Positions 4,095 to 27,974 of a stretch of DNA of 30,108 nt are shown here, one piece after another. Under the pieces are notes generated by a model. The model did not search any database. It saw nothing but the letters and a program-made list of their open reading frames with translations, and was not told the DNA's origin. Position numbers and translations under genes: made by a program. The stretch spans positions 1 to 30,108 of the IMG/VR virus record IMGVR_UViG_3300046007_011613; one strand, 5' to 3'. Origin of the DNA: a virus. Within the stretch, counting starts at the first letter, position 1. Each line of letters opens with the position of its first letter.

Positions 4095-4106
4095 TTTCTA
4101 TAAAAG

Positions 4107-5108: not shown

Positions 5109-5115
5109 ACTTTAA

Positions 5116-5124: not shown

Positions 5125-5153
5125 CTATATTAATAAATTGATTGATTATTTTC

Positions 5154-5161: not shown

Positions 5162-6560
5162 GCATCCCAAAGGGATTTCTTTCACTAAAATCTATTATTT
5201 CATCTGCTTCATCTTCAATTTCGTCATTATTTGTAAAACCATCTTTAACCGAAAGGGTTTCTACTCTTCTCAAATAATGAGAAGCACTTGATGCAGTTCC
5301 TACTATGTTTTCTCCTGGCGTAAATTGCCCATTTATATTAGAGACCTCTAACACATTTGTAATAGAATTCCAAGATCTAACTCTAGCAGTTACTCCACTT
5401 TGATTTCCTGTTACAATTTCGTTGAATATAAAACTTCCACTTGAAGTAATTGAAGGACTACTAATAGTAATCGTTGGAGTCTGTGTATATCCAAGACCGG
5501 CATTCGTGATTCTAATAGAAGTAATTGATCCGGCAACCGAAACAACTGCTGTTGCTGCCGCAGAGACTGATGAAATGCCCGTAAAGGTTATTGTTGGTGG
5601 ATTTACATATCCTGAACCTGAATTAGTAATAGTGATAATTCCTACTATTCCATCTCCTAGAGTTGCTCTTGCAGTTGCTCCATTGCCACCTCCACCAATA
5701 AACCTAACTCCGGGAGTTGTGGTGTATCCATATCCTGGGTTTGTGATTTCCACACTTTGAACAGATTGTGCTTGAGGATTTGTATTGTCATTACATACAA
5801 CTATTCCTCCAATCATCTTAGCAATTGCGGAAGCAGATTGTGTATTTGCTGGAGCAGAAGAAATTCCAACGGCAGGTACGCTAGTATAACCTCCTCCTCT
5901 ATTGGTTACCGTTATAAATCTAATTCCTCCAGTTACTATTCCAGTGCTTGCAGTTGCGGTTATACCTATCCCTATCATTTGGAGTTTTTGTATTGGACCG
6001 ATCGGCACATCTCCTCCTGTGTCACCATTTATATTGTCATCAATATCTGATATTCCAGTATCAATAATTTCATCTTCGTAGCGGAACAATTCGCATTTTA
6101 ACTGATAAGTATATAGTCCTTGGAGTTGATAAAAAGGTTTTTCGTGCTCGACATATTTTATTTCAAAAATTCTATCCCCGAGAGGAAAATAAATTAAATC
6201 ACCTTCCTTTGGTCTTGTGGATAATTTAATGTTTGGTATGTTCTCTATTAATGGAGAAATATAAGTTTTAAATCTCTCTCTAGAAATTATCAAATTAATT
6301 TCATTAAGTGCTTGTATTCCAAATTTAGATAATATAGTTGTATTATCGCCATATCCTTCAAAATTATCCAAATAAGCTTCTATTGGATATGCATTTGAAA
6401 ACTCAGATTCAATAACCTCTCTAATTACCTTTTTTTCTGTTATATATTTTCTTGGTAGATAATAAACTTCAATACCATACATTCTCAATTGTTCATTGAT
6501 CAAGTCCTGTATAAGACCTTGTTCTGATTTTGATCCCTGGAGAAAAAATGGATTTAACAT
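5157..6560 (-). CDS. gp14: Neck protein (gp14) with a repeat-bearing insertion
   Basis: In T4, gp14 sits with gp13 at the neck, joining the filled head to the tail. The first 165 residues match the family: LRMYGIEVYYLPRKYI (26-40, T4 has IQMRGVEVFYVPREYV), YLDNFEGYG (63-71), FGIQALNEINLIISRERF (80-97), PKEGDLIYFPLG (117-128) and LFEIKYVEHEKPFYQLQ-like FEIKYVEHEKPFYQLQG. The end, EADEIIDFSERNPFG (451-465), matches the conserved gp14 tail. Between these ends, residues about 195-430 form an insertion with four GxGYxxxP repeats and one SGVTARV-type module. The protein is therefore 467 residues against 256 in T4. The start has no ribosome site of its own and lies 3 bases after the gp13 stop, so translation is probably coupled to gp13. 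Confidence 0.93.
   Translation of the reverse strand: MLNPFFLQGSKSEQGLIQDLINEQLRMYGIEVYYLPRKYITEKKVIREVIESEFSNAYPIEAYLDNFEGYGDNTTILSKFGIQALNEINLIISRERFKTYISPLIENIPNIKLSTRPKEGDLIYFPLGDRIFEIKYVEHEKPFYQLQGLYTYQLKCELFRYEDEIIDTGISDIDDNINGDTGGDVPIGPIQKLQMIGIGITATASTGIVTGGIRFITVTNRGGGYTSVPAVGISSAPANTQSASAIAKMIGGIVVCNDNTNPQAQSVQSVEITNPGYGYTTTPGVRFIGGGGNGATARATLGDGIVGIITITNSGSGYVNPPTITFTGISSVSAAATAVVSVAGSITSIRITNAGLGYTQTPTITISSPSITSSGSFIFNEIVTGNQSGVTARVRSWNSITNVLEVSNINGQFTPGENIVGTASSASHYLRRVETLSVKDGFTNNDEIEDEADEIIDFSERNPFGMP
5271..5978 (-). repeat. Repeat insertion inside gp14
   Basis: Residues about 195-430 of gp14. Four units follow the plan 'I-x-x-I-x-I-T-N-x-G-x-G-Y-x-x-x-P-x-[VI]': ITVTNRGGGYTSVPAV, VEITNPGYGYTTTPGV, ITITNSGSGYVNPPTI and IRITNAGLGYTQTPTI. 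They are followed by a module with GNQSGVTARVRSW and GQFTPGENIVG. The units are likely short beta strands and turns, perhaps a beta-solenoid or stacked Ig-like fold (inference). The DNA of the copies has diverged, so this is not a recent tandem duplication. Confidence 0.75.
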
Positions 6561-6563
6561 AAA

Positions 6564-7412: not shown

Positions 7413-7431
7413 TTTTATTACCTCTTAAAAA

Positions 7432-7439
7432 TATTTATG
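7432..7439 (-). promoter_or_regulatory. Late-promoter-like box CATAAATA
   Basis: CATAAATA on the minus strand contains the stop codon of the 60-residue gene and lies about 20 bases before the gp13 ATG. The ribosome site AAGAGG follows it closely; a transcript starting 6-7 bases downstream of the box would have a very short leader that may begin inside the ribosome site. That weakens the case for gp13 as its target. Confidence 0.4.
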
Positions 7440-7831: not shown

Positions 7832-7834
7832 AGT

Positions 7835-10800
7835 TTATGCAAGAGCAATAACTCTTAAGTTTTTAACTCTAGGAACATGAACTTGATTGCTCGATGTTCC
7901 TATCAGTTTTATTCTGTAATAACGGAAAGATGGTAAATTATTTGCAGTAAATGTATATTCTCTAAAACTAACCCTGTCAAGTGATAATATTGTTGAAGGT
8001 GCAATATAATCATCTGGAAGACCGTCACTATCTTCAAAATTTATAACTTCTTTACGTTGGTTTAAATTCAAATATCCCGGGAATGGTATGAATATTGGCG
8101 AAAAATTAGGATTATCGCTAATTGCATAAAAAGCACGAATATTTGAGCTTGAAGTTATATAAGCATCTAATAAAATTTTTATAGATGTGGAAGAGGTTTC
8201 TAATTGAACCTCTTTCGTAATGTATTTGAATGCGGTTGGATCATCAATTGGACTATTAACTCTATTATCTTGAGCATAGTCATCTATAACGGAATTAATT
8301 CTATTTGTAACCAGAGTAATTGAGGATGCTCTTGCATCAATCGTTGGACTTAATAACCTATCAGTAGAAGACAAATTGATTCTCAAGTTGAATGATTTTT
8401 GTCCAGATAAATTATTAACCTCATTTACATCTGAACATACAATTCTTGGAGAATCTAGAAAATTATTTTCATATATTGAAATTGGTTCAAAACCAGCATC
8501 TACAAAAGAGGGTTCGTTGCCACTTATGCTTGTTCCTTTAGTAGTTCTAATTACTCCACTTATTGATGTTCCAGTAACCGTAGTGTTTGGAATTAATGGT
8601 TGAATTAATTCAAATTGCATATTTTCGGATGCAGAAATATTCGATCCTCCCGTTGATTTGGATTCATTTATATAAAGTTTCGGTAAAGATGTTTGTACAG
8701 ATCTATCAATTCCATCAGAAGACATGTCAAGTTTAATATGATATGAATCAAATTCTATTGGGTTCTTAATAATTGAAGTATCAACAGAAAATAAACTATG
8801 TTGCTTATTAATTCTTCTTAAAGACACTCCACCCAACTCATACTTATAAACTAAAGTTCCTACTGCATAATCTCTTCGAGGTCTTGTGACCAATCCATTA
8901 ATTGTTCCATTTGAAGTAGATTGGTATGGTATTATTTCATCTCCAATAAGTAAATATCCTGGATTTGTTGAAGCTACCCCAACATTTTCAAAAGTTTGAA
9001 AGTCGCTAGAGTCATCTACAGATATTGAACCTCCGGAGGTTATTGTGCTTGCAACAATACTTTGGGACAGTCTTGTTGGTCTTATATCACTTTCAACACC
9101 AGAAATAATTACATCATTTTGGGGAGAATGCATTCCATGATTTTTTTGATTTATTTTTATATGCAAACCATCAGAAACTGCAATTATATTACTTACTGCA
9201 AGATTTAGATTTACAGTTGAACCAACGTTATTTTTATATTGAAGCGATGGTGTTTCAGAAACTATAAAGTCTCCCTGAACATTATCTACTATTAATTCAT
9301 TTACTGAAGATATGCTTGATATAGAAACTCTTGCACCAGATCCTACATTTAGTGATCCAATAGATGAAATTCCAAGAACATCGCCAATCTTGTATCCCAT
9401 TCCACCATTAACAATAGTTGCTACACCCACTCCACCATTAGTGATGGTAATATTCGCAGTTGCATTTCTTCCATCTCCAGTAATAGATTCTAGGTTTATA
9501 TTAGAAAATGAAAGAGTTCCCGAAGATGGGGTATATCCTATTCCTGCGTTAATTAAAGATAATGTACCAAAAGCAGACCCTGCATTTCCGATATAATTTC
9601 CAACACCTTTTGAATTTGATTGTAAAATGGTGTTTCCTATTATTAGTCCAGAATTGCTTGGTAGGGATGATGCTAATCCAATTCTAATCTTTCTAGAATT
9701 TAGTATAACTGAATCTGGGAATAATTTTTTGGAATGAGTTAAAGTCTGATTAGTGAGTTTCGGATTATAGAAATTAACAAAACCAGAGCTAACAAAGTCT
9801 GCTCTCCAAAGTTGATATTTTAAATCTTCCCACTGACTTGGTTCCCAAGTCGTTCCATTTTGAGATTTAAACAGGGATCCAAAATCTTCTTGGTTTGAAT
9901 GAGATGCATTTGTAATTAAATCAGTTTCATTAACTCTTGAAATAAATACCTTATAATCTGCAGATTTAGATAATAAAACTATTGCGTATTCTTTATTTGC
10001 ATCCAAATAGACGGGACGCTTGAATCTAAATTCAGTTCCTACTGAACCATCATTTGAAAGATTAACTTCGGAGGGTAATTTTGAAACTTGAGAACCATCT
10101 AAAATATAATTTGATGGTTCTGTTCCACTGGATACAGTTCCATTTGCCATAGATCTAATTTCAAAATCTACAGCAATACCTTCAGTTAATGGTTTGGCCT
10201 GGAAATAAATAACACACTTGGTTAAAAATACTCCCTTTGACCCTACAGTAAATGATTGAGCTAAAGGATCTGTTGGGCAAATATTTGCTCCCCTTGCTCG
10301 AAGCCTAGATACTATTCTATCACCCAATTCTTGTGATAGATGTCCACTAGGAAGTCTTTCAAAATTATTAATTCCAAGTTGTTCTGCTATTTGACCTAAA
10401 GTTCCAGTTAGTCCTACACTAGCCGCTGCTTGTATCAATCTTTGTTGAGCAGCAGCAGCATAAACAGGTCCATCATAATTAATCTGTGTGGGTGGTGTAG
10501 GTGGTGGTGGTTGTGTAGGTTGTGTAGGTGTAGGTGTAGGTTGTGTAGGTTGTGTAGGTGTAGGTGTATATACTGGGGGCGGAGATGGTGGTGGAGTATT
10601 ATCAACAACAGTAACGGATGTAATTTGTTGAGTTACATCTGTACCAAGAATTCTTTCTTGGTCTTGTCCTGTTTCTGTTACTTCATTTGATACTACTGAA
10701 TAAGTTCTTGTAGAAATTGTAGTAGGTTGAACAGTTTCTATAAATCCACTAGCAGTAAAGTTTTCTTGTGCTTCTGTTGTAGATTGATTGGTCAATTTAA

Positions 10801-13800
10801 ATGTCCTTGTTCCCGTGCCAAATCTGGTCGATCTGCCTCCCGCTGGATATATAAAGAAACTGCCCATAACAACGGCACTATAATCTACTTTCAATCTTTT
10901 TCGAAGAACTCTAGCTTTTGCTCTAGAAGTAACACCCTCTAGAATCATATTTGGAAAAATAACTCCACTATATTCTATTGAAGCTGTTTCTGATAAAAGA
11001 TAAGTATCTACGTTTAAAATATCGGATGTCTCACTATACGCATTTGGAATTTCCACATTTGTGTAGGGATTGATTTTAAAGAAAGTTCTAAAATCGTTTT
11101 GGTTTATAGTTGCATGAGGTCCAGATTTATGTCTTGGGTGACAAACTCTCAATGTGGCACTGAGTTGTAAAGAAGGACCACTAGCAAGAGTAGCAATAAC
11201 ATTTTCCCCAATTTGGAACCTTCCTGTGCCGGGAAGCATTTCTATTTCAAGTAATTTTGGAAAACAATCGTCTGTAACATCAACACCATCAAAGTATGCC
11301 TTTAATTCAGTCCCCGGAAGAAGACCCTTTCCTTCAAATTGAATATTTCTGGACCTTATGTATTGGGAATTATCTCTTCTAACTACTCTTTGTCCTACAC
11401 TTATTGGGGGACTGATAACAGGTTGTAATGAAAGTTGAGTTCCTGTTCTTACTGTTTCTCCAGTTTCATAATTAGTAGTAGTTGTTTGATTATAGGTTGT
11501 TGTAGTCGTGACATAACCGCTACTAGTTGTTGAAGTTAAATTATTTTGAGTATTTGTAGTTGTTCTATCAGGAGTTCCGGACCATGTAGTTTGCCAATTA
11601 TTCCAGGTAGTTAATGTTCCAGATTCATTTAGATTATATGCTCGTCGGTATAAATCAACATCTCCAATATCAACAATAAAGTTTTGTGCTTCCAATATTA
11701 TTGGGGAATCAAACCAAGTATCTGTTGATGGGATGAGTTCTATTGATCCTTTCCAGTAATTTAAGATAAAAGGTGTTACGCTTTCTGCCCTAGTCGCTAT
11801 ATTTTGACTTCTCCATAGTGAATCTGTGTATCTTAAGGTAATAATACCATCATTAATAACTACATTTTCTCCCTCTATAGAATTATTATTATCTACAGAA
11901 GTTGTTTTATCGTTAAATGGAAGTAAACTGATATTTTGAGTATCTACATTGGGTCTTAATTCTTGTGATGTTGGATCTATAGAATTATTTTTTCCAAAAG
12001 TAAGATCCTGAATTGGTGCCTTTTCATCGGAAAAATTATCTACAAAAAATCCAGATTTGAATTTATTTAATCCATTAGAATCTTGGATTAAAAGATTTGA
12101 AGTTTTTGATTCAAGAAGAGAAAGGCTTGTATAGTACTCTAAATTTCTTATTCTATCTTCCAATACTTTAATATCATGCATTCTATATCTTTTATGTTCA
12201 GCGAGATTTATAACTGCAGATGAAGTATCGTAAAGATATGGTGGTAAATTAATAGTCGCTATTTCTAAAGAATCATCTATTGGAACTGGTTTTTCTGGTT
12301 TTTCTGCAGATGTTCCTATTTTTACTTGCAAAGTTCCGGTCTTATTTAAATATATTACATCTATTCTTCCAAGATAAAATGAATAATTTAGCACAAGGGA
12401 TTCGTCTGACGCTAAAGAATTTTTGGCAGAATTTCCGGATGATGTAAATGATCTTCCATAAAACTCTAGTGGAGATCTAGTATCAACTGTTGTAGTATAA
12501 GGAGAAACTCTTGGTCTAATGTCAATAGTATCGGTTAATTTAACATTATCAACTACTCCTACTTCCTTCGAATAATCATATTCAAGATAAGAGTTTCTTG
12601 TTGTTATATCCCCACTGTCTGAAGAATCGTAGTATGCATTAGAAAAATAAATTTTCAATTGTCTAGTCGGAAAATTAAAATTAGATTTCTTTAGTACAGT
12701 AGAATAATCATAGAAAGTTGATCTTTGACCAGAATTAAATGAATAATGAGTGGTAATATCATTACTGTCAAAATTTTCAGATGCCAAAATACATCTAATA
12801 TTAGATTCCTCAAATAATAAGGTTTCTCCTATTGCAAATTGAGTAGTATTCTTTGAGGCATAACTAATTTCAGAATCTGTTTTTCTTTCTAACAAAATAG
12901 CAACTGATCCACTAGACTCTCCTATAATTTTTTCTCCGATTATTAAATCCGAAGTTTTTCCACTTTGACTTCCTATTGAAGAAAGTAAAAGTGATGGGGG
13001 ATTGGCGGCAGAAGTTCCCTTAGATTCAAATATTCCATGAATTTCAATTACATCTGGATAATTTAAAGAAATTAGATCATCTTCAACTCTTGTCCCATAA
13101 GGATAATTTCCATACACTAATCCATTATTTGTTGTATCTTGTCCAGTACCAGAACCCTCTAATATTGACTTGTTAACAATTACATAATTGATTCTATTTT
13201 TCTTTTTAATTTTTTCTTTTGGTTTGCTTTTTCTAATAGTAGCAACCAAAGTGGAACCAGTAGAATCATTTGAAACATTACTAATTGTTAAAGTATTTCC
13301 ATCGATAGAAAACTTATCTCTTGTTAATGTCTGTATAGACCCATTTGAATTTGTTAAAGTATATCTTTCCTCATCAAATGGCAGAAATGTTTCATCTTGA
13401 TCACTTAAAGAGACTATTAATTTATTTGATGATATTATCTGATTATCAAAAGTTTTTCTAATTGTTAATGTGCAATTTGTTAAATCTACATTTGAAATAT
13501 TACTTTTTGGTAATTTTGAGTATAAAGTATTATCTTGAGATGATATTAGGGATGTCGTTAAGATTTCTAAGTCATTTACTGAAATATTTGATGCTGGAAC
13601 ACCACCTGCAACGAAATTTGCTACAGTTGTAACTCCAACTGCTTCTATTGAGGTTGCATTAACTGTACTGACCTTGGCATAATATGGTAGAGATGTATTT
13701 GTGGGATTTGTATATTTTACTATCTCTCCCACTTTTATATTAGTTCCAGAAAAAATTGGATTTGTGCTTGTAATAGAAATAAAAGAACCATTTGATACTA

Positions 13801-15538: not shown

Positions 15539-15544
15539 GATTCT

Positions 15545-17095
15545 TTAAAACTGCAAAATGACTTTAATATCTTCTTTTTGATTTGTTGATCTGGTAATAG
15601 ATGGCCTATTATCAACATAAATTATATTTCCAGAATATTTTTGAACTTCTGGTTGAGCAACACCGCCAACAAAATTTTGTCCCAAATAGTATTTCTTATT
15701 ATTTATTGTTGTATCTATACCAGTAAATCCAGAATCAATATTCAAAATTCCTCCAGTATTGCCCGTAATTGTTAGACTACCTCCAGATGATATTGAACTT
15801 GTAAATTCATTCAAATTAAATCCATATATGGGATTTGTTTGTTGGGATCCGTCAGTGTTAATTCCTGCTATAGATCTATCTTGCCAGTATTTTAAAACAC
15901 CCGTGTTTTGATCGTAACTAACTACTCTTCCTGCTGCAGTAACTCCAGTTCCTATTGTTTGCGTTATTACAGAATCTGGAGTAAAAGATGCGGTATTGTA
16001 TGAAGAACCGGTTAATTTTAATGCGTAAGTAGCACTTGCCTTATCTGATGATAATATAGAACCATTAGATTCTCTTGGGCTGTTAATAATTCCAACTCTT
16101 GCAATTTGGTTTCCTGTTATAAAATCTGGATTTTGAACATCATTTTCCAATCTAGAATAAATTAATGCATTAAATGCCCCCAATTCTCTGTAAATATCAA
16201 ATCCATGACCTCCTTTAGGTGGAATTATAACGTCAAATGTCGGTCTAGTATCAAAAGTGGTTATTCCACCAGCAATTAAATCAACACTGCCAAAGGTATA
16301 TCCTGATCCTTGATTTGTTATTGTTATTGATTCTACTTTTTGTTCTGAATTAGTTACTATTGTGCATTCTGCCCCAGTTCCATCTCCTTTTATAGGAACA
16401 TTTTTGTAAATTTGATTTCCAGATCCTACAGAGACACCTCTATTTGTTATGATTATAGTTTTAATTGATCCATCTGTTGAATTATTCTTAATCGCAGCAT
16501 TTTCTACATTTGATTCCCAATCCGAAGGAACTGGTATATAATCTGTGGATTCGAATTTTACAATATCCGAAGGTTTTATTGTATACAAATATTTCCAAAT
16601 ATACCCATCATTACTAGATCCGGCGGGTCTTGGTTCTAAGTCTACAAATGTTGGTTCATCTAATGAGGGTTTACCTTTTTCATTTTCTGGATTTGTCCCA
16701 TTCTCTAGGCAAATATAGACACGATAATCGCTATTTAATACATAAAAAAATGAAGTATATAAAGTAGAAGAATCTGATATTTTAGGACGATTTGAAATTG
16801 TATAATCGTTCCTATAATAATCATAAATTCTTCCGGAAGACCAAATTATTTTTGGTATTACTAATCTAACATCACTACTATTAATCTTTTTCAATGATAT
16901 CATTGTTTCCCAACAAATATTCTCATCATTAAAACTGTCTTTGTGGGATGGGGGATCGGAATCCCAATTAGATTCCACCTCTGATGGATTCGGTAGACCT
17001 ACAAAGGTATAGTATGAATTTTGAGTGGAAGAAATTGAACTCAAAAAATTTTTAGCATTTAATATTCTAAATTGATCAGTTATAATTGCCGACAT
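15545..17095 (-). CDS. gp8: Baseplate wedge protein (gp8) with insertions
   Basis: T4 gp8 is a dimeric wedge component that links gp7, gp10 and gp6. The ends match closely: IITDQFRILNAKNFLSSI at the N-terminus (T4 has IVTSKFRTEKMLNFYNSI) and GNIIYVDNRPSITRSTNQKE at the C-terminus (T4 has GEMIYMENRPPIIMAMDQTE). The block DGYIWKYLYTIKPSD (163-177) matches T4 DGYVWEYLFEIPPD. The protein is 516 residues against 334 in T4. The extra length holds GxGY-type repeats at residues 210-275 (IIITNRGVSVGSG, ITITNQGSGYTFG) and a module with GTGVTAAGRVVSYDQNTGVL (382-401). Between them, PPKGGHGFDIYRELGAFNAL (292-311) looks conserved in marine relatives. No ribosome site is clear, but ATAAATA boxes lie just upstream. 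Confidence 0.92.
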   Translation of the reverse strand: MSAIITDQFRILNAKNFLSSISSTQNSYYTFVGLPNPSEVESNWDSDPPSHKDSFNDENICWETMISLKKINSSDVRLVIPKIIWSSGRIYDYYRNDYTISNRPKISDSSTLYTSFFYVLNSDYRVYICLENGTNPENEKGKPSLDEPTFVDLEPRPAGSSNDGYIWKYLYTIKPSDIVKFESTDYIPVPSDWESNVENAAIKNNSTDGSIKTIIITNRGVSVGSGNQIYKNVPIKGDGTGAECTIVTNSEQKVESITITNQGSGYTFGSVDLIAGGITTFDTRPTFDVIIPPKGGHGFDIYRELGAFNALIYSRLENDVQNPDFITGNQIARVGIINSPRESNGSILSSDKASATYALKLTGSSYNTASFTPDSVITQTIGTGVTAAGRVVSYDQNTGVLKYWQDRSIAGINTDGSQQTNPIYGFNLNEFTSSISSGGSLTITGNTGGILNIDSGFTGIDTTINNKKYYLGQNFVGGVAQPEVQKYSGNIIYVDNRPSITRSTNQKEDIKVILQF

Positions 17096-17109
17096 TTTTT
17101 ATGAGGTTT

Positions 17110-17125
17110 TATTTATTTATTTATT
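17110..17125 (-). promoter_or_regulatory. Triple overlapping ATAAATA boxes before gp8
   Basis: The minus strand reads as three overlapping ATAAATA units, a tetranucleotide (AAAT) repeat, beginning at the stop codon of the gp7-position gene and ending about 15 bases before the gp8 ATG. It matches the late promoter consensus three times over, which could give several start points, or it could be a simple AT repeat. Confidence 0.45.
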
Positions 17126-20100
17126 ATACAACATAATCAGTATATCTTAATGGTTTAGATCTTATGACAACCGCACTAGTACTCAATCCAATGATACCAT
17201 TATTTCTATATGAAGAATATTCATTGGAAGAAGATCTTTGTTGTAGTTCTATTTTACCCCAACTATACTCTCCATAAAAATCACTAAATCCTAATCCGGT
17301 TAGGTTATTATACGACGCTAGACTGACTACAACTTTTAATACTGAAGATTGTCCTCCACTGGGAACAAAAGATGACCCAACAGAAACTGATTGCGCAATA
17401 TAAACATTATCTAACCCGGAAGTTCCGACACCAACTATGCTTCCTGTAGAATTTAAAGAAGTTACTCCATTTCCAACTTTAGAATTATAAACAACAAAAT
17501 AGTCTCCAGTTTTAATTCCGCTTATAGTAGTTGCAGTTCCACTTATGGAACTATTTCTAAGATAAGAATTATTTGGTATGAACAAATCAAATACCAATCC
17601 AGTGACAGCAACGCCAACTATTGATGTAGTTGCAATACCCGTAATAATTCCATGATCTCCAAAATAATTAGATACGGTACATTTTTCTGTTTTAATTGAA
17701 GGTGGTTCAATTAAAACTTGAGGTGGATTTGTGGTTTCATACATACTTCCGCCATAAGTCACTGTAATATTTGATATTTTTCCTCCATTAATTGACGAAG
17801 ATGCTGAAGCTCTAAAAGTAGTTCCTAGACCAACTGGGGATTCTAAAATAACAGAAGGTGCAGACACATAACCACTGCCCGCATTCGTAATATTAATTGA
17901 AGTAACTGTTCCTGCTAAAGATACTACAGAAGATGCTCTGGCAAATTCTGTTGCGTCTTGGGATAATAAAGATACTTCATATTGAAAATTTAAATTACCT
18001 GAAGATGATTCTTTTGGTGAATTAAAAAACGGTCTTATATTATCAACATAAACAATGGTTGAATTTACACCAACTGAGTTTATAATATATGCACTTGGAT
18101 ATATTGCAGGCTCATAAGTTATTCTATTTTTAGAAACAATAGTAAAATCTATGAATTTATCTTCAGTTTGTTTTCTCCAAAATGTTGGGCGATATAGTGT
18201 CGGATCTTCAGAGATTCCCTGCCCAAAATATAGTTCAGTTTCTGCCGAATTGCTGTATAATGAAGTTATTGTTCTTTTATTTTGATCTAAACTTTGTGGT
18301 TGATTTGAAAAAATATCGTATGAAAGTCGTAGTTCATCGCCCTCTTTAATGGTTTCTACTATATCAACTGTATTAGTATCGTAAGCAGAATTTCCAATAT
18401 AGAAAAGAATTTTGCAAATATCCCCAGAAATTACATTATCTGAAGATTTTCCTTTAGGTGCTTCATTAAAAATTATTTTATCTCCTCTTGTAAAACTGTA
18501 AGATTCCCCAGGAACTTGCAAAACATCATTTATGAACACTAGTAGGTTATTTTCAAGGTTTATTTTTGATCCTTGGTTAGAAATTAAAGAATATCTTTGA
18601 TTTCCTATAGATAATGGAAATCTTTTTCTAACTCCATTGAAAAGACCACTTATGTTATCAAATACTTTAATTCCGCCAATAAACCATCCAGAGAACTTAT
18701 CAGATCTTATTTCTTCAACAAAAATATTGAATTCTTTAAATTGTTTAGTTGTATCTGTAGGAATTCCTATAGTACCACCAATAGGAATAGTTAAAATATC
18801 TCCTTTTTTATAGTTATAACCAAAGTTTTTTATTTCAAAATTTATTATACTAGATCCATTTCCAACAATAACATCAATTTCTGCTTGAGTTCCTATGCCA
18901 GATGACCGTGATGAATAAATGAGGGGAATGTTTGAATAAGGTAGAGGGTCATCAATAGTCAATATAGGAGGATTGGATTGGGAGTATCCAGATCCTGGAT
19001 TAGTTATAGATACACCAACTATATTTCCTTCGCTTACTGTTGCTATTCCAATATAAGTAATTTTATTATCTTGCCCATATTGAGTTATGACGCCAACCCT
19101 AATCGGACTTTGTATTCCTGATCTATATCCAGATCCACTATTTCCGATTGAAACTGAGGAAATCGTTCCAGATATTGAAACAATAACAGTTCCCCCCGCA
19201 GAAACTAATGGTTGATATCCAAGACTATCGCTAGATCCAACAGATACTATAACTCCTTTTATGGGTAAATTCGCAGTGTTAATGTCAGTTTGATTTGGAA
19301 TACTATTAGATCCTACAAAAAATACTGTAGTAACACCAGATCTTTCGGACAAATAATAATTATCTGTTAGGGATATTTCGTTTGTTGTTACTGATGGTAT
19401 TTGTGGAATATTATTAATTAATAATATTATATTATCTGTTGATATTCCAGAAACATTCGTTTGGTTGTTTTTAAGAATGAATCCACTAGAAATTCCCGTA
19501 AAAGAGTCTGAAACGTCGTCAAAAATATAATTATTGCTATATGTATCTTTGATTTGGTCAGGATTGCCAGATTTTATAAAAGATCTTCCGTGGAATTTGG
19601 ATTTTTGTGTTAAGAATGCGTCTAAAGGATCTACTAGTGATAATGGAGGTGATGCAAAATTGATAGTATTTTCATTTATGTTATAGTTTCCAATAATTTT
19701 TGTAATTATTGATCCTTGAGAATGTGATTCTGGATCTGTTCCTAATACAGATCGATCTACTTTTATTAAATTTGTAGATCCAATACCTACAGAATTAATT
19801 TTCATTATTTCGTCATCAATTTTTATAAAATCTCCATTAAAAAATGAGGAAATGCCTGTGACATAAACAAAATCTGTTGATATTGAAATATTTCCAGATA
19901 ATGAACTTTTTAACGATGTTATTGTAATTGGCGATTGAATAATTCCATCTATAGAAATTAATACTCTAGAATTTTGATTAAAACAAGAAAAATAATGAGT
20001 TGTTCCTATACCAACACTAGTGATGTCTAAAGTTTTTGGTGTGGAATTTAACGCATCTTCTGCATTTCGTGATAGTTTTATTTTATTATCGTTTATTTTT

Positions 20101-23100
20101 ACTACATATAGTTCATTTGGTAATTTATTTGTCGTTCCTATTCCCACTCCAAAGTAAGTAGAAGCAATTCCAATTGAATTGGATACTGAATTTGTTCCGT
20201 TAAAGTAGGAAATTTTTTCTCCAGTAACAAAAAAGTGATTTTCTATTTCTATAGTATCTGAGGTAATATCTACGATAGACTGATCATTTCCTTTAAAAAC
20301 CCTCTTAAATATCGGATAATCGTTACTGGTTAAAATAAAATCTTTTTTAGATACATTATCACTGCTATCAAATTGAGAACTTATATCATCTATACTAAGA
20401 ACTTTATTTCCGAATGATAAAATATAATCTTGTACTACTTTATTTTTAAATATAATTTCATTTGAGGTTAATTTTGAGTCTATATTGAAGCTATTTTCTG
20501 AAGAAAGATCAAAATAATAAGTATTAAAATCGGATTTGCTAAAAATATCTAATATGACGGAAAGATCAGATTGTTTAGTTGTTGATATTCCAGCATATTG
20601 AGTGGATTCTAATTGATAATCAGAAAAAACTTTAAACCCTTTGGGGTGATTTAAAGTTAAAACGGAGTCTTTCCAAGTATCATAATCTACTTTTGATTTT
20701 ATTGAATATGAAAAATTTTGATAATAGAAACTATCTTGAATTTTTTGAATGTCATCATTCAAAAATCCACTATTTTGTTGCCATCCTTTATTCAACTTTG
20801 TTTTTGAAGAAATACTAGTCGTAGAATCTGTTTTGTATATGTTTAAAATTTTTGATTTTGCCCCAGTAGAATCTCCCTGAATTACTTCACCAATTTGAAA
20901 TTCCTTAGTTGGATTTGAAATAGTTAAAAGACTAGAATATTCATCCCAATCGGATACATAACCTTCTTTTTCTTGAGATGACTCTGATTTAATATTTTCT
21001 CCAATTAAATACTGACCTCTTTTTAAAGTAACAATAAATGAAGGAAAATATTTTTCAGGAATAATTCTACCCACAGAATTGATATTATCAAAAATACCAG
21101 GATCTTCTTCAGATTCTAAGTAATCTTTTAAACTGTAAGTTATTGTTCCTTGCCCTAATCCAACATCTTCAGTTAATTCTTCTATAGTGAATAGACTATA
21201 ATTGTAATTTTCGGAATTATATCCTTTACTTTCGCTGCTAGAAACCTTTACATTTTCAATAAGTATTTTCTCATTAAGAGAGAATGGAAAAACGTCGGCA
21301 TATGGAAAAGTAATTGTAACAAGTTTGGTGATAGAATTAAACGCTATGGAGTTTATTTTTAATCCATTGTTATTTTCTATTGGTATTATTTTTGGAATCA
21401 ATCCACTTAAATTGGAAGTATTCTTTAATATTTTTACTATAGTGTTGCCTAGAGAATACTCCAAGTCCAAATCTTGTATAACTTCATTAGTTTTACTATC
21501 TATTGCCAGTAATTTTGGTGGCGTATTATAATTTATCCCAAAGGATGAAACTGCTATTGTATCAACAGAATATAGAGATTCTAATTTTACTACTAGTATA
21601 GGATAATTCTTTGGTAGTAAAGTAGTATCAGATGAAAAATCAAATCCTATATTATTAATTTCAGATCCTTTTATTTTTCCAACAGACTCGCTAAAACATT
21701 CTAATAAAGCATCTTTTCCCGTAATTGAATTTATTTTCAAAATTCTTGGTAAAGAGTAATAATTTTTCCCCGGATCTACTACCTTTATTTCTGAAATGGG
21801 ACCAAAAGCACTGATAGAATTTGTACTGTAACTTAATGTTGATATTGTTGATGAATATGAAACAACCTCCGGGTTATTGGGCAATAAGTACTCAAAAGAA
21901 GTTGTAGAACCAACACCAACAAAAACTGGGTAATCTCCTATATAACCACTTCTCAATAAATCTAGAGTATTGTTTGATTCTATTAATAAATTATCAACTA
22001 TAATTTCTCTTTTATTTTCTGGATAAGCAATTCCATTAGTAAATACTGGAACTAATCGGTAATACAATTTGTCAGGAAGATCACTCTTTATGTTTAAAAT
22101 AACCTTTGCGTTTTGACTAATTCCAATAGTTCCTTCTTGAATAATATTAAATTCTTCGTATTCTTCTGTTTTATTGAAAACATTTTTAAAATATGGGTCG
22201 GTATAAAGTTCAAATTTAAAGGCTGAATATTGATTGTTATTTGATGTATATGCTAGAGAAGAATCCGACAAATCAAAAGTAACATCAGATTCTTTATATA
22301 ATTTTATTAAAGGATTAATTGGAGAAATTGATCCATTAGAAACAGAAGTTATTTTTATTGTTTTTGGGTCTGGAGAAATAGAGTCATAATAAGAATCACA
22401 TAATTTTATAGTATTTTCATCTAAAACTAAAATGTAATAAATTTCATTATTGGTCAAATTTTGTGTTGAGGTATCTGTTTTGTAAATTATTTTTTGCCCT
22501 GTTACAAATCTGTGATCATCAATAGTAATAGTACTATTCAAAGTACTAACACCCGAAGATATAAAATTCTTTGGATTTATAATAACTCTTCTTTTTTGAT
22601 CATCATATTTTACAATTACTGAGGTTGATGTTTTTGGATTTACATCTATGGATACTATGTCATTAGTTGCCAATCCATGAGTGCTTGATGTGGATACAGT
22701 AACAACATTTTTTGACACCGTTCCATATATTTTTTCATAATTGGTTTTAAAACTATGATTAGTTCCAGTTCCTATACCAGAAAAATACAAAGTTGTAGAA
22801 TTTTTTGTTGTACTAGTAATCCCAACAAATCCGCCTGTACTACCAATTCCTACCTTAACGGTCGAAACTCCTATAATATCATCAGAAATCTTTGCCACAA
22901 AAAGTTTTGTGTTATTGGATAAAGAAAAATTTGAAGATCCATTTATAGAGACTTGTATAGTAGATCCTCCATTGGAAGAATATATTAACTCATCTCCAGT
23001 TTTTAATCCATGATTTGGAAAATAAATTGATTTACTTGGAATGAACAATGTTGTTACGCCACTTCCTGGATTTGAAAAATTTAAAGTATACCCAATTCCA

Positions 23101-26100
23101 ACACCCAATCCCAAAGAATCTTTTGGATTAAAATAGAGTTCATCATTTAGTTTATATTCGAATTTTGGCGAATATTGATTTTGGAATATTATTTTCCTTG
23201 ATTTTTCCTCTAATACCTCTAGTGCTGAATGGGCAGAACCAACAGTTTCATGAACAGACCTTAAAACTCTTATTCTAGAAGATAAATTGTCAGTATTTAA
23301 AACTTTAACTTTTTCAGTTCCTATTCCTAAAATGTCATTAGATTTAAAATTATTAATATTACCAAAAACAGAAAAATAAGTTACTATTCCTGTGGAAGAA
23401 ACACTACCTACATTTTCTCTTAGTATTAAAGCGTTACTTGGAACATCAATCCGGTGTAATCCATCGAAAGTATAAGTCGTAGTACTCAATCCAGATATTG
23501 TTACTACTTCGTCATCTTTAAACTGATGTGGGTCATTAAAAATTCCTAAAAATGAATTATTCACAAAATCTGGGTAGAATTCAACATTACTAACACCAGT
23601 CGTTGCTACACTTATATTTTGTATCGCTTTTCCAAAAACTTTAGAGACTTTTGCGGCAGCATTGTATCCAGATGTTCCTTGGTTATCAAATATTATATTA
23701 TCCCCTACCCTGTAATTTTCTCCAGAATTTAATATTTCTACCTTTTCAATATATCCCGGAGAAATGGATTTAACTTCAGAGAATTGTATTTTATAATCTT
23801 GAGTATTCAAATATTCATAGATAATATTTTTATCATCCAATCCATAAGAATTTGTATTTCTTAAACATTCGATTTCATTCAAATCAAGTTTTTCTTGATT
23901 TGAACCCGAAACAAAATTAAATCCATTTGGTTTTGATCGGTAGAAATTTCCTACAAAATAAGGAAATTTTGGTTTTTTGTATCCATTAAATTCGCTAGAT
24001 GTAGTTAAATCTAATGTAGAAAAATAAGCATATACTCCTAGGGGAAATTCTGGAGTAATACAAAATCTTCCATTGTATTCATCGAGATAATTTTCGTCAT
24101 TTTTGTTTTTATACTCATAATCTTCTATAAAAAATCCTAATGGAAATTCTGGTCTATTATTTTGAGGAGATGTTTTTAGTAAGTAGCTGGAGTTTAATTG
24201 AACTATTCCACCACTACCATCTTTTTTGTTGTATCCATAAGGACCATATATGGGATTTCCATCGTATGCCCATCCTATTAAAGGAGAGTGTGATAACACA
24301 TTTGGATTTGTATTATCATTCAAAATTTCCTTAAATTTTCTTGGATAATACAAATGTCCATACTGCAATTCATCTTCTTTAGAAATTGATTTAAATAATG
24401 CGCCATCATCTAACTGACTAAAAGATTTTAAAAATCTTTCTACTAAATTGATAGTCCATGTTTGAATCTTTGGATATAATTTAGCGCCGCTGCCATTTGC
24501 TATCGCAGTTATTTGTGTTCCGCTTTGACTATACCCAAATCCACTTTCTATAACCTTAACAGAAGTTATAGATCCTCCACTTATTATTGGATTTAAAACT
24601 GCACCAATTCCATCACCTATCACTGAAATGACGGGAGAAGAGTTATAATCTTGTCCTGAAGAAATAATGGAGACATCCACTATTTTTCCTTCTTTTATGA
24701 TAGGACTTAAAACTGCTCTAGAACCAGATTCCAAAGAAATTTCAGGTAATCTATTGAAATTTAAAATATCTGGAGATCCATAATTAGTTCCTTTATTATT
24801 AAGATGAATAGAAGAAACTTTTCCTCTAAACTTTGGATTTACTTTAGATTTAAAAACATCCTTTGATATTGATCCACCTACAGTAGATACTCCAATTTCT
24901 CCAATAATACTCACATTTATTTCTGGATAATTGAAAATATGAGTACCGACTCCAACAGAATTAAATTTAATATACTGTGCTGATTTGTAATAAAAATCTT
25001 TCTCTGTAATTCCTACCCCAACTTCCGAAAGAGTAAAACGATCTTCATTCAGTTTTGTTACAAAGTATTCTTTATTTGTAGATAATCCAGAAATTGCAGT
25101 TCCTTCTACTGAATATTTTAATATTTCTCCAGATTCATATCCATGATTTTCAATAAAAATTGCCCCATATCCAGTGAAAGTACTAATCCCAGAAGAAGAA
25201 GTAGTTCTTTTTTTATTTTGATATCCGCTTCCTGGATCGATAATACTAATAGATCCTACAGTAATTTTTTTATTATATGTCAAAATTTTATGTTCACCTA
25301 CTCCCAGAGAAGTAAAAGATATTGCAATTCCAGAATTAAAGTTTTCTATATCAGAATGTAGTTGTATTTCAGTAGGTGATTTTACTGACACATAGTATGA
25401 CGCATTAGTAGATATGCCTCCAATTGAAGAATATCCATTAGTCTTGTAAATTACTCTTTCGCCATTTCTAAATTTATGATAAGTAGAAAACCCTATTTTT
25501 GATGCAGTTGAATTTCCTGTGGTTACATTTTTTTGAGCGTCAAATAAGACTTCATGGTCAACTAATTTGATATTTGCCACAGCATTGGCACCGGTGCCGT
25601 TTCCTCCTGTAATGGATACTATGGGTGTCTCTACGTAATCAAATCCAGGATCTATAACTTCAATATCTGCTAATATACCCTCCACCGAGCAATAACCAGA
25701 TACTCCACTTCCTAAAGAATCTTCTACTTTTAAAATAGGTGGATTTATTACGTCATAATCATTTTCGGAAGACAATATATCTATAGATTCAATTTGCCCA
25801 TAATATATTTTGTCCGTGGATTTATAATTGAATATTTCTGTTCCGTTTATTAGTGTTCCAATTGCCCCAGGAAAAGATTCATAATCATTACTGTCATTTG
25901 TTGGCGTAGGAATTACTCTAAGTAATTTTTGAGCATTTAAGGATTTTGAAGCAAAATTATTAAATTCTATTTTACACCCGTCTGCGTCATCATAAGTAGA
26001 ATTTTCATCTAAATTTAATTCAACAAAATCTGATTTATAAATTGATGATCTACTCTTACATAAGTTAAATTGAGTGTCATTTTGTTTCTTTACAAAATAA

Positions 26101-27974
26101 ATTCCTTCCTCAAGTAAATTTTTGGCTTTCTCATTATTTGCTGGAGTGAAATATACTGCATCTCCGCTCTCAAAATAATGACCACCTTCTATTTGTATTG
26201 TACTAATTCCAATAAAATTGCCAGTGACTGAAAAGTCATTAGTACTTAAAGGCAAATCCTCATACTTCGGTAAAGAATTTGTTGCAACTATTAATTGATT
26301 ATCTTTTTCGTATATATTTTGTACATCTGATGAAATTTTTAATAGATTGGAGTACTTTGAGGATTGTATATTTACCTTAGATATTTTTCTTCTTATTGAA
26401 TATAGAATATTTGGTGATAAATCAATTCCTTTGATCGAAAATGAGGTTTTATTGAATACTTCATCCACTTTCGCGTTAGAGTTTATATTTTTAATTTCTA
26501 CAAAATCACCTTTTCTTATAATATTATTTGATTTTGTGGTTATAGTGTATTTTTTCTCTTGAGAATTTGTCAATTCTACCGAACAATTATTATAAGTTGG
26601 GGAAGTATTGAAAATCCAATTATTGAACGAAAAATTATTATCATCATTAAATCCTAAAGATTTAACTGATATTTTTGTATTGGGATTATGATAAAAATTA
26701 TCAGTGTTGGTTTTTAATTCTACTTGATTCAGTATAGAATTAATTTTAACCTTTATTACTTCTGAATTTAGGGGACTTCCATAGGCAAAGGTGTTTATTG
26801 ATACTTTAGAACCATTTGAAATTGATCCAATACTACTTCTATCTACACTAAAACACCCATAAAATTGATTTACTGATTTTGATGTATATGAAACTATTCC
26901 AGAAGTTCCATCTGTATAATCAACACTCAAATGTCCATTTTTGGGAAATCCTAATGTTGAGTCTACAGTAATTACATCTGATAGTTCTGGATGATCATCA
27001 ATTACTTTAGTTTTGGGGTGAATTGAAAACTCACCATAAACAGAACCATCTACACTAATATCCCTAGAATACCCCGCATCTACACTTAATTGATAATATT
27101 TTTCTCCAGATTTTGTGATAAGTGATTGTACTTTTGTAATTGGGGCATATGATTTTACATAATTTCCATATTCATATGCATCTTGATATAAAGTAAAATT
27201 CACTAAATCTAATGGATTTCCTTCCACAGACTCCACGACAAAATCATAAGTTACATTATACTGAGCATCTGATGGTTTAAATAAGTAATCTTTTGGTCTT
27301 ATAATCTTCACACTTTGTCCATAAAGACATTTAAATAATATGTTAAAAGATTCATCTGTTCCTTTTGAAGAATAAAAATCTTGTCCTTGTTTAATGAAAA
27401 GTTTTTCATTGACTGAAGAATATAAATTCTTTTTCTCAAATCCGGGTAAAAGTTGATACTTGGTTTTTTTTAAAAACTCATTTAAAAATAATACACTTAA
27501 ATTAATTATTTTTGAACCAGATTTATGGGCGTCTGATAGTGAAGTTTTAAATAATACTTCATCTGAAGATCCTTCTGCTTCATAAGAAACAATACCACTA
27601 AATCCTCTAACACACCCAATAAAAGAATCTTGGGATGTTTCTTTATAAGTGATGATTTCGTTATCAATTTGTAACAATCCGTATGATTTTGGAAATCCTT
27701 GAGTTCCTGTTGGATTTTTTTCCAAATCAATAGTGATTACCTCATCAAAAAATGATATATCTTCTTTTAAAATTACATCACTTATATTCTCTGCAGATGT
27801 ATCAATTTTAGTGTATTGATCAATATTCTGAATCAAATCTGCAGGAGATCCTTGATATTCATTAGAAATATAATATTGCGTTAAAAATTCTGAAAAAAGA
27901 GGAAACTCCTCTTTAATATATTCTGGAAGTTGATTTTCAACAATATTAGAGAATTTAATTCTGGTTTCTGACAT
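17124..27974 (-). CDS. Giant virion protein in the gp7 (baseplate wedge) position
   Basis: At 3616 residues this is over three times the size of T4 gp7 (1032). It has no clear sequence match to T4 gp7; the assignment rests on its place between gp6 and gp8. The N-terminus (residues 1-240) is a recognisable baseplate-type domain of marine T4-like phages: LPEYIKEEFPLFSEFLTQYY (16-35), LLPGFEKKNLYSSVNEKLFI (175-194), FYSSKGTDESFNILFKCLYG (200-219) and IRPKDYLFKPSDAQY (225-239). The body is a mosaic: about 14 GxGYxxxP units (for example VIESGFGYS, ITNPGSGYSQSNPPI, ITNAGSGYVSAPSV), seven or eight 'H-x-F-x-x-GE' units, RG-type modules, and a YHYH-like domain (about 1227-1319). The C-terminal block GLGFSDFYGEYSWGKIEL (about 3560) looks conserved. 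No signal peptide or membrane segment is seen. The frame is open throughout. It likely forms wedge bodies or long arms around the baseplate (inference). Confidence 0.88.
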   Translation of the reverse strand: MSETRIKFSNIVENQLPEYIKEEFPLFSEFLTQYYISNEYQGSPADLIQNIDQYTKIDTSAENISDVILKEDISFFDEVITIDLEKNPTGTQGFPKSYGLLQIDNEIITYKETSQDSFIGCVRGFSGIVSYEAEGSSDEVLFKTSLSDAHKSGSKIINLSVLFLNEFLKKTKYQLLPGFEKKNLYSSVNEKLFIKQGQDFYSSKGTDESFNILFKCLYGQSVKIIRPKDYLFKPSDAQYNVTYDFVVESVEGNPLDLVNFTLYQDAYEYGNYVKSYAPITKVQSLITKSGEKYYQLSVDAGYSRDISVDGSVYGEFSIHPKTKVIDDHPELSDVITVDSTLGFPKNGHLSVDYTDGTSGIVSYTSKSVNQFYGCFSVDRSSIGSISNGSKVSINTFAYGSPLNSEVIKVKINSILNQVELKTNTDNFYHNPNTKISVKSLGFNDDNNFSFNNWIFNTSPTYNNCSVELTNSQEKKYTITTKSNNIIRKGDFVEIKNINSNAKVDEVFNKTSFSIKGIDLSPNILYSIRRKISKVNIQSSKYSNLLKISSDVQNIYEKDNQLIVATNSLPKYEDLPLSTNDFSVTGNFIGISTIQIEGGHYFESGDAVYFTPANNEKAKNLLEEGIYFVKKQNDTQFNLCKSRSSIYKSDFVELNLDENSTYDDADGCKIEFNNFASKSLNAQKLLRVIPTPTNDSNDYESFPGAIGTLINGTEIFNYKSTDKIYYGQIESIDILSSENDYDVINPPILKVEDSLGSGVSGYCSVEGILADIEVIDPGFDYVETPIVSITGGNGTGANAVANIKLVDHEVLFDAQKNVTTGNSTASKIGFSTYHKFRNGERVIYKTNGYSSIGGISTNASYYVSVKSPTEIQLHSDIENFNSGIAISFTSLGVGEHKILTYNKKITVGSISIIDPGSGYQNKKRTTSSSGISTFTGYGAIFIENHGYESGEILKYSVEGTAISGLSTNKEYFVTKLNEDRFTLSEVGVGITEKDFYYKSAQYIKFNSVGVGTHIFNYPEINVSIIGEIGVSTVGGSISKDVFKSKVNPKFRGKVSSIHLNNKGTNYGSPDILNFNRLPEISLESGSRAVLSPIIKEGKIVDVSIISSGQDYNSSPVISVIGDGIGAVLNPIISGGSITSVKVIESGFGYSQSGTQITAIANGSGAKLYPKIQTWTINLVERFLKSFSQLDDGALFKSISKEDELQYGHLYYPRKFKEILNDNTNPNVLSHSPLIGWAYDGNPIYGPYGYNKKDGSGGIVQLNSSYLLKTSPQNNRPEFPLGFFIEDYEYKNKNDENYLDEYNGRFCITPEFPLGVYAYFSTLDLTTSSEFNGYKKPKFPYFVGNFYRSKPNGFNFVSGSNQEKLDLNEIECLRNTNSYGLDDKNIIYEYLNTQDYKIQFSEVKSISPGYIEKVEILNSGENYRVGDNIIFDNQGTSGYNAAAKVSKVFGKAIQNISVATTGVSNVEFYPDFVNNSFLGIFNDPHQFKDDEVVTISGLSTTTYTFDGLHRIDVPSNALILRENVGSVSSTGIVTYFSVFGNINNFKSNDILGIGTEKVKVLNTDNLSSRIRVLRSVHETVGSAHSALEVLEEKSRKIIFQNQYSPKFEYKLNDELYFNPKDSLGLGVGIGYTLNFSNPGSGVTTLFIPSKSIYFPNHGLKTGDELIYSSNGGSTIQVSINGSSNFSLSNNTKLFVAKISDDIIGVSTVKVGIGSTGGFVGITSTTKNSTTLYFSGIGTGTNHSFKTNYEKIYGTVSKNVVTVSTSSTHGLATNDIVSIDVNPKTSTSVIVKYDDQKRRVIINPKNFISSGVSTLNSTITIDDHRFVTGQKIIYKTDTSTQNLTNNEIYYILVLDENTIKLCDSYYDSISPDPKTIKITSVSNGSISPINPLIKLYKESDVTFDLSDSSLAYTSNNNQYSAFKFELYTDPYFKNVFNKTEEYEEFNIIQEGTIGISQNAKVILNIKSDLPDKLYYRLVPVFTNGIAYPENKREIIVDNLLIESNNTLDLLRSGYIGDYPVFVGVGSTTSFEYLLPNNPEVVSYSSTISTLSYSTNSISAFGPISEIKVVDPGKNYYSLPRILKINSITGKDALLECFSESVGKIKGSEINNIGFDFSSDTTLLPKNYPILVVKLESLYSVDTIAVSSFGINYNTPPKLLAIDSKTNEVIQDLDLEYSLGNTIVKILKNTSNLSGLIPKIIPIENNNGLKINSIAFNSITKLVTITFPYADVFPFSLNEKILIENVKVSSSESKGYNSENYNYSLFTIEELTEDVGLGQGTITYSLKDYLESEEDPGIFDNINSVGRIIPEKYFPSFIVTLKRGQYLIGENIKSESSQEKEGYVSDWDEYSSLLTISNPTKEFQIGEVIQGDSTGAKSKILNIYKTDSTTSISSKTKLNKGWQQNSGFLNDDIQKIQDSFYYQNFSYSIKSKVDYDTWKDSVLTLNHPKGFKVFSDYQLESTQYAGISTTKQSDLSVILDIFSKSDFNTYYFDLSSENSFNIDSKLTSNEIIFKNKVVQDYILSFGNKVLSIDDISSQFDSSDNVSKKDFILTSNDYPIFKRVFKGNDQSIVDITSDTIEIENHFFVTGEKISYFNGTNSVSNSIGIASTYFGVGIGTTNKLPNELYVVKINDNKIKLSRNAEDALNSTPKTLDITSVGIGTTHYFSCFNQNSRVLISIDGIIQSPITITSLKSSLSGNISISTDFVYVTGISSFFNGDFIKIDDEIMKINSVGIGSTNLIKVDRSVLGTDPESHSQGSIITKIIGNYNINENTINFASPPLSLVDPLDAFLTQKSKFHGRSFIKSGNPDQIKDTYSNNYIFDDVSDSFTGISSGFILKNNQTNVSGISTDNIILLINNIPQIPSVTTNEISLTDNYYLSERSGVTTVFFVGSNSIPNQTDINTANLPIKGVIVSVGSSDSLGYQPLVSAGGTVIVSISGTISSVSIGNSGSGYRSGIQSPIRVGVITQYGQDNKITYIGIATVSEGNIVGVSITNPGSGYSQSNPPILTIDDPLPYSNIPLIYSSRSSGIGTQAEIDVIVGNGSSIINFEIKNFGYNYKKGDILTIPIGGTIGIPTDTTKQFKEFNIFVEEIRSDKFSGWFIGGIKVFDNISGLFNGVRKRFPLSIGNQRYSLISNQGSKINLENNLLVFINDVLQVPGESYSFTRGDKIIFNEAPKGKSSDNVISGDICKILFYIGNSAYDTNTVDIVETIKEGDELRLSYDIFSNQPQSLDQNKRTITSLYSNSAETELYFGQGISEDPTLYRPTFWRKQTEDKFIDFTIVSKNRITYEPAIYPSAYIINSVGVNSTIVYVDNIRPFFNSPKESSSGNLNFQYEVSLLSQDATEFARASSVVSLAGTVTSINITNAGSGYVSAPSVILESPVGLGTTFRASASSSINGGKISNITVTYGGSMYETTNPPQVLIEPPSIKTEKCTVSNYFGDHGIITGIATTSIVGVAVTGLVFDLFIPNNSYLRNSSISGTATTISGIKTGDYFVVYNSKVGNGVTSLNSTGSIVGVGTSGLDNVYIAQSVSVGSSFVPSGGQSSVLKVVVSLASYNNLTGLGFSDFYGEYSWGKIELQQRSSSNEYSSYRNNGIIGLSTSAVVIRSKPLRYTDYVV
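24016..24295 (-). other. YHYH-like domain within the giant wedge protein
   Basis: Residues about 1227-1319 of the giant protein contain SHSPLIGWAYDGNPIYGPYG, then YEYKNKNDENYLDEYNGRF, then CITPEFPLGVYAYF. This is the pattern of the YHYH domain (Pfam YHYH family: 'G-x-A-x-D-G-x-P-I-Y-G ... D-x-x-N-G-R ... T-x-E-x-P-x-G-x-Y-A-Y'), found in secreted bacterial proteins and some phage virion proteins. Its biochemical role is not established to my knowledge. Confidence 0.75.

Follow-up and report, generated by a model that had tools for sequence, protein, structure and literature searches.

A tail gene cluster raises the question of whether one short GxGYxxxP repeat is shared by virion proteins from different parts of a phage and, if so, how it came to be there and what it does. 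The initial annotation had proposed that the neck, wedge, and outer baseplate proteins encoded here carry a single repeat type, spread by recombination between the genes of one phage.

Tail module genes and repeat sites

The window, by which is meant the whole stretch of DNA analysed, is a virus record of 30,108 bases in itself. It contains a T4-like tail module with the main genes all on the minus strand, encoding gp6, a gp7-position protein (3,616 residues), gp8, a DUF4815 protein (2,567 residues), gp13, gp14, and gp15. Further open reading frames (ORFs) are a 142-residue ORF at the gp16 position, a 649-residue ORF, and an ORF at the gp17 position, where the names gp16 and gp17 are assumed by us from gene order. 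The window belongs to a marine virus of cyanobacteria. Among named phages, S-SM2 (Kyanoviridae) comes closest in gp14 (65.6%), and for gp8 the nearest relative is marine virus AG-345-O18 (65.3%), followed by S-SM2 (64.3%). Pfam matches were obtained for gp14 with T4 gp14 neck protein (PF11649, 103.8 bits, cut-off 25), for gp8 with T4 gp8 (PF09215, 62.6 bits, cut-off 25), and for the DUF4815 protein with PF16075 (176.3 bits, cut-off 30), and the core of the gp14 model aligns with T4 gp14 (Z 11.5, 125 residues, 3.8 Å). The gp7-position protein is placed by the gene order gp6-gp7-gp8, which is the same as in S-SM2, and by a match to phrog_2885; the Pfam wedge model gives 23.8 bits with this protein, below the cut-off of 27. 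The repeat sites are collected in Table 1.

Table 1. Genes bearing the GxGY repeat and positions of the repeat sites in the window
Feature	Window position	Strand	Basis or remark
gp14 gene	5157-6560	-	
gp14 residues 374-438, C-terminal part of small barrel	5247..5441	-	structure alignment of model; N-terminal part about 5940-5993
gp14 residues 208-373, four-GxGY-repeat array	5442..5939	-	profile matches at 211, 265, 303, 343; insertion relative to T2 gp14
DUF4815 protein gene	7835-15538	-	
DUF4815 protein residues 1990-2062, repeat pair	9353..9571	-	sites 1992, 2034 by profile comparison
gp8 gene	15545-17095	-	
gp8 residues 205-297, repeat pair	16205..16483	-	sites 208, 252; missing from T2 gp8 in alignment
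gp7-position protein gene	17124-27974	-	
gp7-position residues 3354-3430, repeat pair	17685..17915	-	97% and 96%
gp7-position residues 2935-3067, three repeats	18774..19172	-	76%, 95%, 50%
gp7-position residues 2058-2160, two repeats	21495..21803	-	89% and 92%
gp7-position residues 1406-1440, one repeat	23655..23759	-	86%
gp7-position residues 904-1172, repeats at 905, 1051, 1095, 1134	24459..25265	-	profile matches; copy at 1134 has 8.7 bits by profile but 0.5% in profile-profile comparison
gp7-position residues 725-806, two repeats	25557..25802	-	site 765 (97.6%); first repeat by eye only

Detection of the repeat in four virion proteins

The repeat unit comprises about 40 residues in the order strand A (VxxIxIT), N-x-G-x-G-Y-x-x-x-P loop, strand B (PxVxI), glycine-rich loop, and strand C (ATAxV). 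The strict GxGY motif occurs four times in gp14, five times in the gp7-position protein, and zero times in gp8 and the DUF4815 protein, and the average in shuffled proteins is 0.000–0.002. In single-sequence searches, a repeat profile made solely from gp14 units (76 non-redundant ones out of 302) gives four matches of 42–56 bits in gp14, in agreement with the four copies originally annotated, matches of 32.6, 18.7, 13.3, 8.8, and 7.9 bits plus weaker ones in the gp7-position protein, and matches of 18.4 and 5.4 bits in gp8. The best value for the DUF4815 protein is 3.6 bits, which is at noise level. Shuffling of the whole proteins gives a maximum of 4.2 bits (2.8 bits for DUF4815 shuffles), so the refuting outcome, scores no better than for shuffled sequence, does not hold for the gp7-position protein and gp8; shuffling in blocks of 20 residues gives up to 9.2 bits in gp14 and at most 4.5 bits elsewhere. 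With an iterated profile the DUF4815 protein reaches 4.5 bits and gp7 shuffles up to 6.4 bits, and by single-sequence score the DUF4815 protein is at the edge of noise.

Profile-profile comparison, in which each protein is represented by an alignment, detects two sites in gp8 (65 and 53%) and two in the DUF4815 protein (46 and 36%), with seven controls (gp6, gp13, gp15, gp17, and three other DUF4815 segments) at 0.2% or below. With a wider profile the values are 89 and 27% for gp8 and 82 and 21% for the DUF4815 protein, 12 sites in the gp7-position protein exceed 5%, the 15 site-free segments reach no more than 1.3%, and two of the four gp14 copies are among the matches listed. Further gp7 copies at about residues 727, 2095, and 2900 are seen by eye only, and together with the 12 sites they make the earlier count of about fourteen a fair one. 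The gp14 alignment matches the gp7-segment alignment at 96% over 174 columns. The inclusion of the DUF4815 protein is convincing mainly because its homologues carry clear GxGY units at the corresponding place. Judged by these comparisons, all four proteins carry one homologous repeat type, the DUF4815 protein by profile comparison only. Strong matches had been anticipated in all four, and they were obtained for gp14, the gp7-position protein, and gp8; the pair of copies predicted for gp8 is confirmed, whereas that predicted for the DUF4815 protein is recovered at the profile-profile level and is lost in noise at the single-sequence level. Chance composition as the source of the pattern is ruled out for gp14, gp7, and gp8 by the shuffles and for the DUF4815 protein by profile comparison only. 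The repeat was not found in gp6 and gp13 of the window, as had been noted; gp6-like proteins of other phages do bear it.

Structure of the unit and of neighbouring barrels

AlphaFold models were built on 75 sequences for gp14 and on 48 sequences for gp7 residues 700–1200. The gp14 region 191–430 has pLDDT values of 80–93 per ten-residue block, except for 55 at residues 251–260; the whole-protein gp14 model has a pLDDT of 75.7 and a pTM of 0.49, and the gp7 model has a mean pLDDT of 89 and a pTM of 0.78. DSSP assigns three strands per unit in the same A-B-C order in the two models; the agreement is one of strand order, and the common fold foreseen for gp14 and the gp7-position protein is a putative one. 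Conservation within the repeat falls in turns and strands, with no conspicuous catalytic or binding motif.

The gp14 model range 183–443 aligns with 9f4a_A0, a chain of a Klebsiella phage baseplate-tail entry (Z 8.4, 83 residues, 4.5 Å), and with EF-Tu-like domains over fewer residues (Z about 5). Judged from the aligned range, the array seems to be flanked on both sides by parts of a small barrel (about residues 190–207 and 374–438). In the gp7 model, a barrel at 805–901 aligns with a ubiquitin-activating enzyme domain (Z 9.4, 77 residues, 1.9 Å) and one at 919–1017 with phi92 endosialidase (Z 8.0, 74 residues, 2.4 Å) and K1F-type endosialidases (Z 6.8–7.0), with phage endosialidase identity of 21–24%; barrel Z values of such size can mean a common arrangement. 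The barrel at 919–1017 appears in the model to be nested between two successive GxGY units, those at 905 and 1051. Searches of the PDB with Foldseek and VIA-align gave rows for the gp14 neck core, the gp14 barrel, and the two gp7 barrels and none attributable to the repeat, an absence that does not amount to a new fold.

Other modules were seen in the same proteins. A relative of the gp14 barrel lies at gp7 residues 2320–2379 (window 20838-21017; 23.0 bits, shuffles at most 5.9), and a barrel repeat resembling the phage endosialidase and ubiquitin-activating enzyme barrels is present at six gp7 places (window 24915-25541 and residues of about 590, 1650, 1810, and 2600). A module common to gp15 residues 240–318 (window 4155-4391) and gp7 residues 2691–2760 (window 19695-19904) scores 21.6 bits, with shuffles at most 9.6, and weakly resembles the Pfam Rider domain (E 0.066, below cut-off). 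A YHYH domain (PF14240) lies within gp7 residues 1225–1325 (window 24000-24302; 85.4 bits, cut-off 25).

Insertion and conservation of the repeats

In the alignment, the gp14 array is preceded by the neck domain and followed by a C-terminal peptide; T2 gp14 finishes in a similar peptide, and the repeat region is therefore internal. T2 gp8 is without the stretch that holds the gp8 pair. The absence of the repeat from T4 gp14 and gp8 noted at the outset agrees with T2, standing in for T4, in which no match was found. The gp8 of phiM12 and Melnitz has divergent pairs, though the gp14 of these phages is without the repeat, so the gp8 pair may be older than the gp14 array, as far as this sequence distribution can indicate.

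Of 93 gp14 ORFs, 80 of which were fetched as close relatives and in which S-SM2 is present twice, 88 have four copies above 10 bits and two (S-RIM8 and ACG-2014f) have two copies, with no copies in T2, phiM12, and Melnitz. Among relatives of the S-RIM8 type, gp14 has two copies in 77 of 80 and one in three. The variability among related phages that had been expected is therefore not seen within types, where the number is fixed, although it differs between phage types (0, 2, or 4). The average identity among 62 close gp14s is 67% for the repeats, 78% for the neck core, 59% for the barrel, and 31% for the linker. Across eight four-copy phages, repeats at the same gp14 position are 50.5% identical between phages compared with 34.9% for other positions. 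A structural part for gp14 is favoured because the copy number is fixed and the repeats are 67% identical, and the fixed number together with the conservation by position would favour a structural collar over an interchangeable adhesin.

Even copy numbers

Arrays were counted in loci 338–497, with one modal value per cluster of related flanks. The 76 clusters comprise 68 even ones (40 of size 2, 11 of size 4, 12 of size 6, three of size 8, and one each of sizes 16 and 18), six odd ones above one (three of size 5, two of size 7, and one of size 15), and two single ones. Above two, 28 clusters are even and six are odd (one-sided binomial p 1e-4), and under a smoothly falling size distribution odd numbers would be favoured in this range. 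For bacterial clusters above two the counts are 22 even and four odd, and for viral clusters six even and two odd (p 0.14). Without thinning, 15 settings of threshold and gap gave 113–120 even and 29–38 odd arrays above two; thinning by array sequence gave 71 even and 27 odd of 98 arrays longer than two; and dereplicated internal arrays comprised 113 even, 23 odd above one, and 19 single. Several odd internal arrays contain a doubled gap or a split match. Because the loci were fetched with a consensus of 2.7 units, the sampling behind these counts is not random. Two of the arrays detected in the gp7 of the window have odd counts, of one and three units.

Alternation between two types of unit was looked for. 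Odd and even units show no difference in spacing (p 0.49) and a modest difference in sequence, the largest being threonine at profile position 5 (22 versus 41%), and neither comparison points directly to alternation in pairs. The even bias suggests the pair as the folding and insertion unit.

Distribution beyond this phage

The repeat occurs well beyond these four proteins and this phage. With tblastn, the consensus gave no matches in phages and plasmids, a result that probably reflects the low-complexity filter and does not speak for absence. A search with the gp14 insert of the window matched 17 phage records, and 10 of 12 whole phage records had matches at E 0.001, the exceptions being T2 and phiM12; with another profile, phiM12 gp7 shows one unit at 12 bits. 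Eight of the match places were looked up in phage records. Five fall within genes that have a virion or tail annotation (virion structural protein, putative major tail protein, S-SSM7 gp14, tail fibre, and baseplate hub lysozyme) and three in hypothetical ones, among them a 6,395-residue frame of S-RIM8 beside a wedge gene. The tail fibre of phage B23 bears repeats. Relatives of the consensus are found in genome contigs titled as many bacterial phyla plus some archaea. All 80 loci kept from these contigs hold a repeat above 12 bits, which their selection with the consensus would lead one to expect, and the same is true of 80 of 80 viral loci.

The carriers span neck, sheath, tail tube, cement, adaptor, and baseplate proteins as well as SusD proteins and multicopper oxidases. 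Domain matches among 42 hand-picked viral carriers include T4 neck (6), sheath (4), gp8 (3), wedge (3), SU10 adaptor (3), gp6 (2), BW3TFN (2), nozzle (1), lactonase (1), and fn3 (1). For 19 hand-picked carriers from bacterial contigs they are tail sheath (1), tail tube (2), cement or minor capsid (1), DUF3383 (1), DUF2589 (1), beta-helix (1), baseplate wedge (1), gp8 (1), SusD (3), multicopper oxidase (4), and no family (3). A large group of viral carriers (e.g. L418) has no Pfam match; we take these to be P22 gp10-like, on the basis of a structure search that reached a protein named P22 gp10-like (E 6.7e-9, TM 0.17). By a crude hydropathy rule, a signal-like N terminus is present in 44 of 74 bacterial-contig carriers compared with 81 of the 445 remaining ORFs of those loci; the 30 carriers without it include some phage proteins, and 0 of 93 viral carriers look exported by this rule.

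Several single carriers may be recorded. A tail sheath protein of Nostoc foliaceum (L380, 3990-6089) has six repeats just ahead of the sheath domain matches. In three SusD proteins (L378, L389, and L395), a repeat pair falls at closely similar positions (about residues 433–523). The BFVD entry A0A3G5AH46, whose assignment to Sylvanvirus sp. could be wrong, was matched by the gp14 model (E 1.3e-6, 25% identity over 264 columns, TM 0.16).

Comparison with known modules

The repeat has no credible match in Pfam, in NCBIfam, or among PDB sequences. PDB sequence searches returned only unrelated weak matches (best E 0.31 with the consensus and 0.096 with the profile), and the best NCBIfam value for the consensus, E 0.0053, is far below the cut-offs. 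Ig-like domains of lambda gpV, T5 pb6, and YSD1 protrude from the tail tube, and the inserted YSD1 beta-sandwich domain stabilises the ring, according to passages of PMC8718954. Phage Ig-like domains (Big_2, Big_1) resemble GxGY in being small beta modules added to virion proteins, and the GxGY pair in the carrier L416 lies C-terminal of a tail tube domain, as does the lambda Ig-like domain. In contrast to Ig-like domains, GxGY units are about 40 residues long and form tandem arrays that are mostly even and mostly internal. No Ig-like or FN3 model matches gp14, gp8, the DUF4815 protein, or gp7 at E 0.1, the consensus matches fn3_5 at E 0.68, below its cut-off, and the fn3 match in one of the 42 viral carriers was counted anywhere in the protein. 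In structure comparisons of the models, which would bear on an Ig fold, the matches are occupied by non-repeat domains. The BACON repeats that crAss-like phages carry in tandem, as described in literature excerpts, are likewise small domains in a phage protein and are also known from bacteria, but constitute a separate family; Pfam scans, whether of the window proteins or of the consensus, show no BACON model.

The consensus matches 20 PHROG virion families at E 0.001 (including phrog_460, 438, 708, 2885, 701, and 1922), and these profiles thus already contain the repeat; they are whole-protein families with profile lengths from 385 to 6136 and not a repeat model. Among open-licence papers on cyanophage necks, baseplates, and repeats, no title or abstract opening describes the GxGY repeat, and the passages of the cyanomyovirus genome paper (PMC3037559) on repeats and gp7 do not concern it.

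Possible role and origin

In the reading we regard as probable, with considerable room for doubt, the repeats form a paired beta module that has been inserted where the carrier protein is exposed and that makes ring or surface contacts, much as phage Ig-like domains do. Two units would form one folding and insertion unit: with three antiparallel strands, one unit would leave the chain on the far side and the second would return it, and since the chain is back on the entry side after two units, pairs would suit the loops of host proteins. The cassettes of the neck protein gp14, of gp8 and the gp7-position protein in the baseplate wedge, and of the DUF4815 protein would most likely face outward, by analogy with known Ig-like additions and from the nature of the carriers. 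There they would contact neighbouring ring subunits or, at low affinity, the cell surface; a putative surface or ring-stabilising role is plausible. That the GxGY pair is a hitherto undescribed, insertion-ready cassette fitting loops in nearly any exposed protein, and that many phage types and exported bacterial proteins take it from one pool, with one shared purpose on phage neck, sheath, tube, cement, and baseplate, is a tentative proposal that we would sooner doubt than accept.

An adhesive function, in which weak binding to polysaccharide or host envelope is multiplied by copy number as proposed for phage Ig-like domains, is rather unlikely. It would fit the three SusD outer-membrane proteins and the many exported-looking proteins among the bacterial carriers, the B23 tail fibre, and the two PHROG tail fibre families matched by the consensus, but the fixed number and conserved positions of the gp14 copies are unlike a variable adhesin, and the repeat, conserved in turns and strands, shows no conspicuous binding or catalytic motif. 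The repeats could instead be neutral passengers, a soluble and insertion-tolerant module that spreads since it does little harm, without a common function. The very wide spread across unrelated carriers, the even bias, which is compatible with mere insertion tolerance, and the gp14 copy numbers of 0, 2, or 4 by phage type all agree with this; we consider it improbable, however, given a gp14 array nearly as conserved as the neck core and repeat positions kept across phages.

Multiplication within one phage lineage through recombination between its virion genes, as the initial annotation had it, is the origin to which we give least credence. All four proteins bear the repeat, and gp7 has other modules in common with gp14 and gp15. 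Across ten phages, however, the identity between gp14 and gp7 repeats is 33.3% within phages (204 pairs) and 33.0% between phages (1,812 pairs), with permutation fractions of 0.18 for identity and 0.053 for BLOSUM score, the latter leaving room for a weak trend towards similarity within a phage. None of the DNA repeat families of at least 24 bases pairs two repeat sites. Recent exchange is not seen, because identities within and between phages are alike and no DNA repeat joins the sites; the gp8 pairs of phiM12 and Melnitz beside repeat-free gp14 and the abundance of the repeat outside these phages also argue against such an origin. Ancient exchange between genes is possible.

The repeat is thus common on virion proteins and exported bacterial proteins, yet the searched copies of Pfam and NCBIfam contain no model for it. 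Annotation consequently leaves it without a name, and unrelated PHROG families match each other through it. A repeat profile could flag virion proteins in uncharacterised phages, and the even-number rule is a clear structural prediction. T4 has a whisker collar at its neck, and a structure would show whether these T4-like phages bear a ring of the gp14 module in its place.
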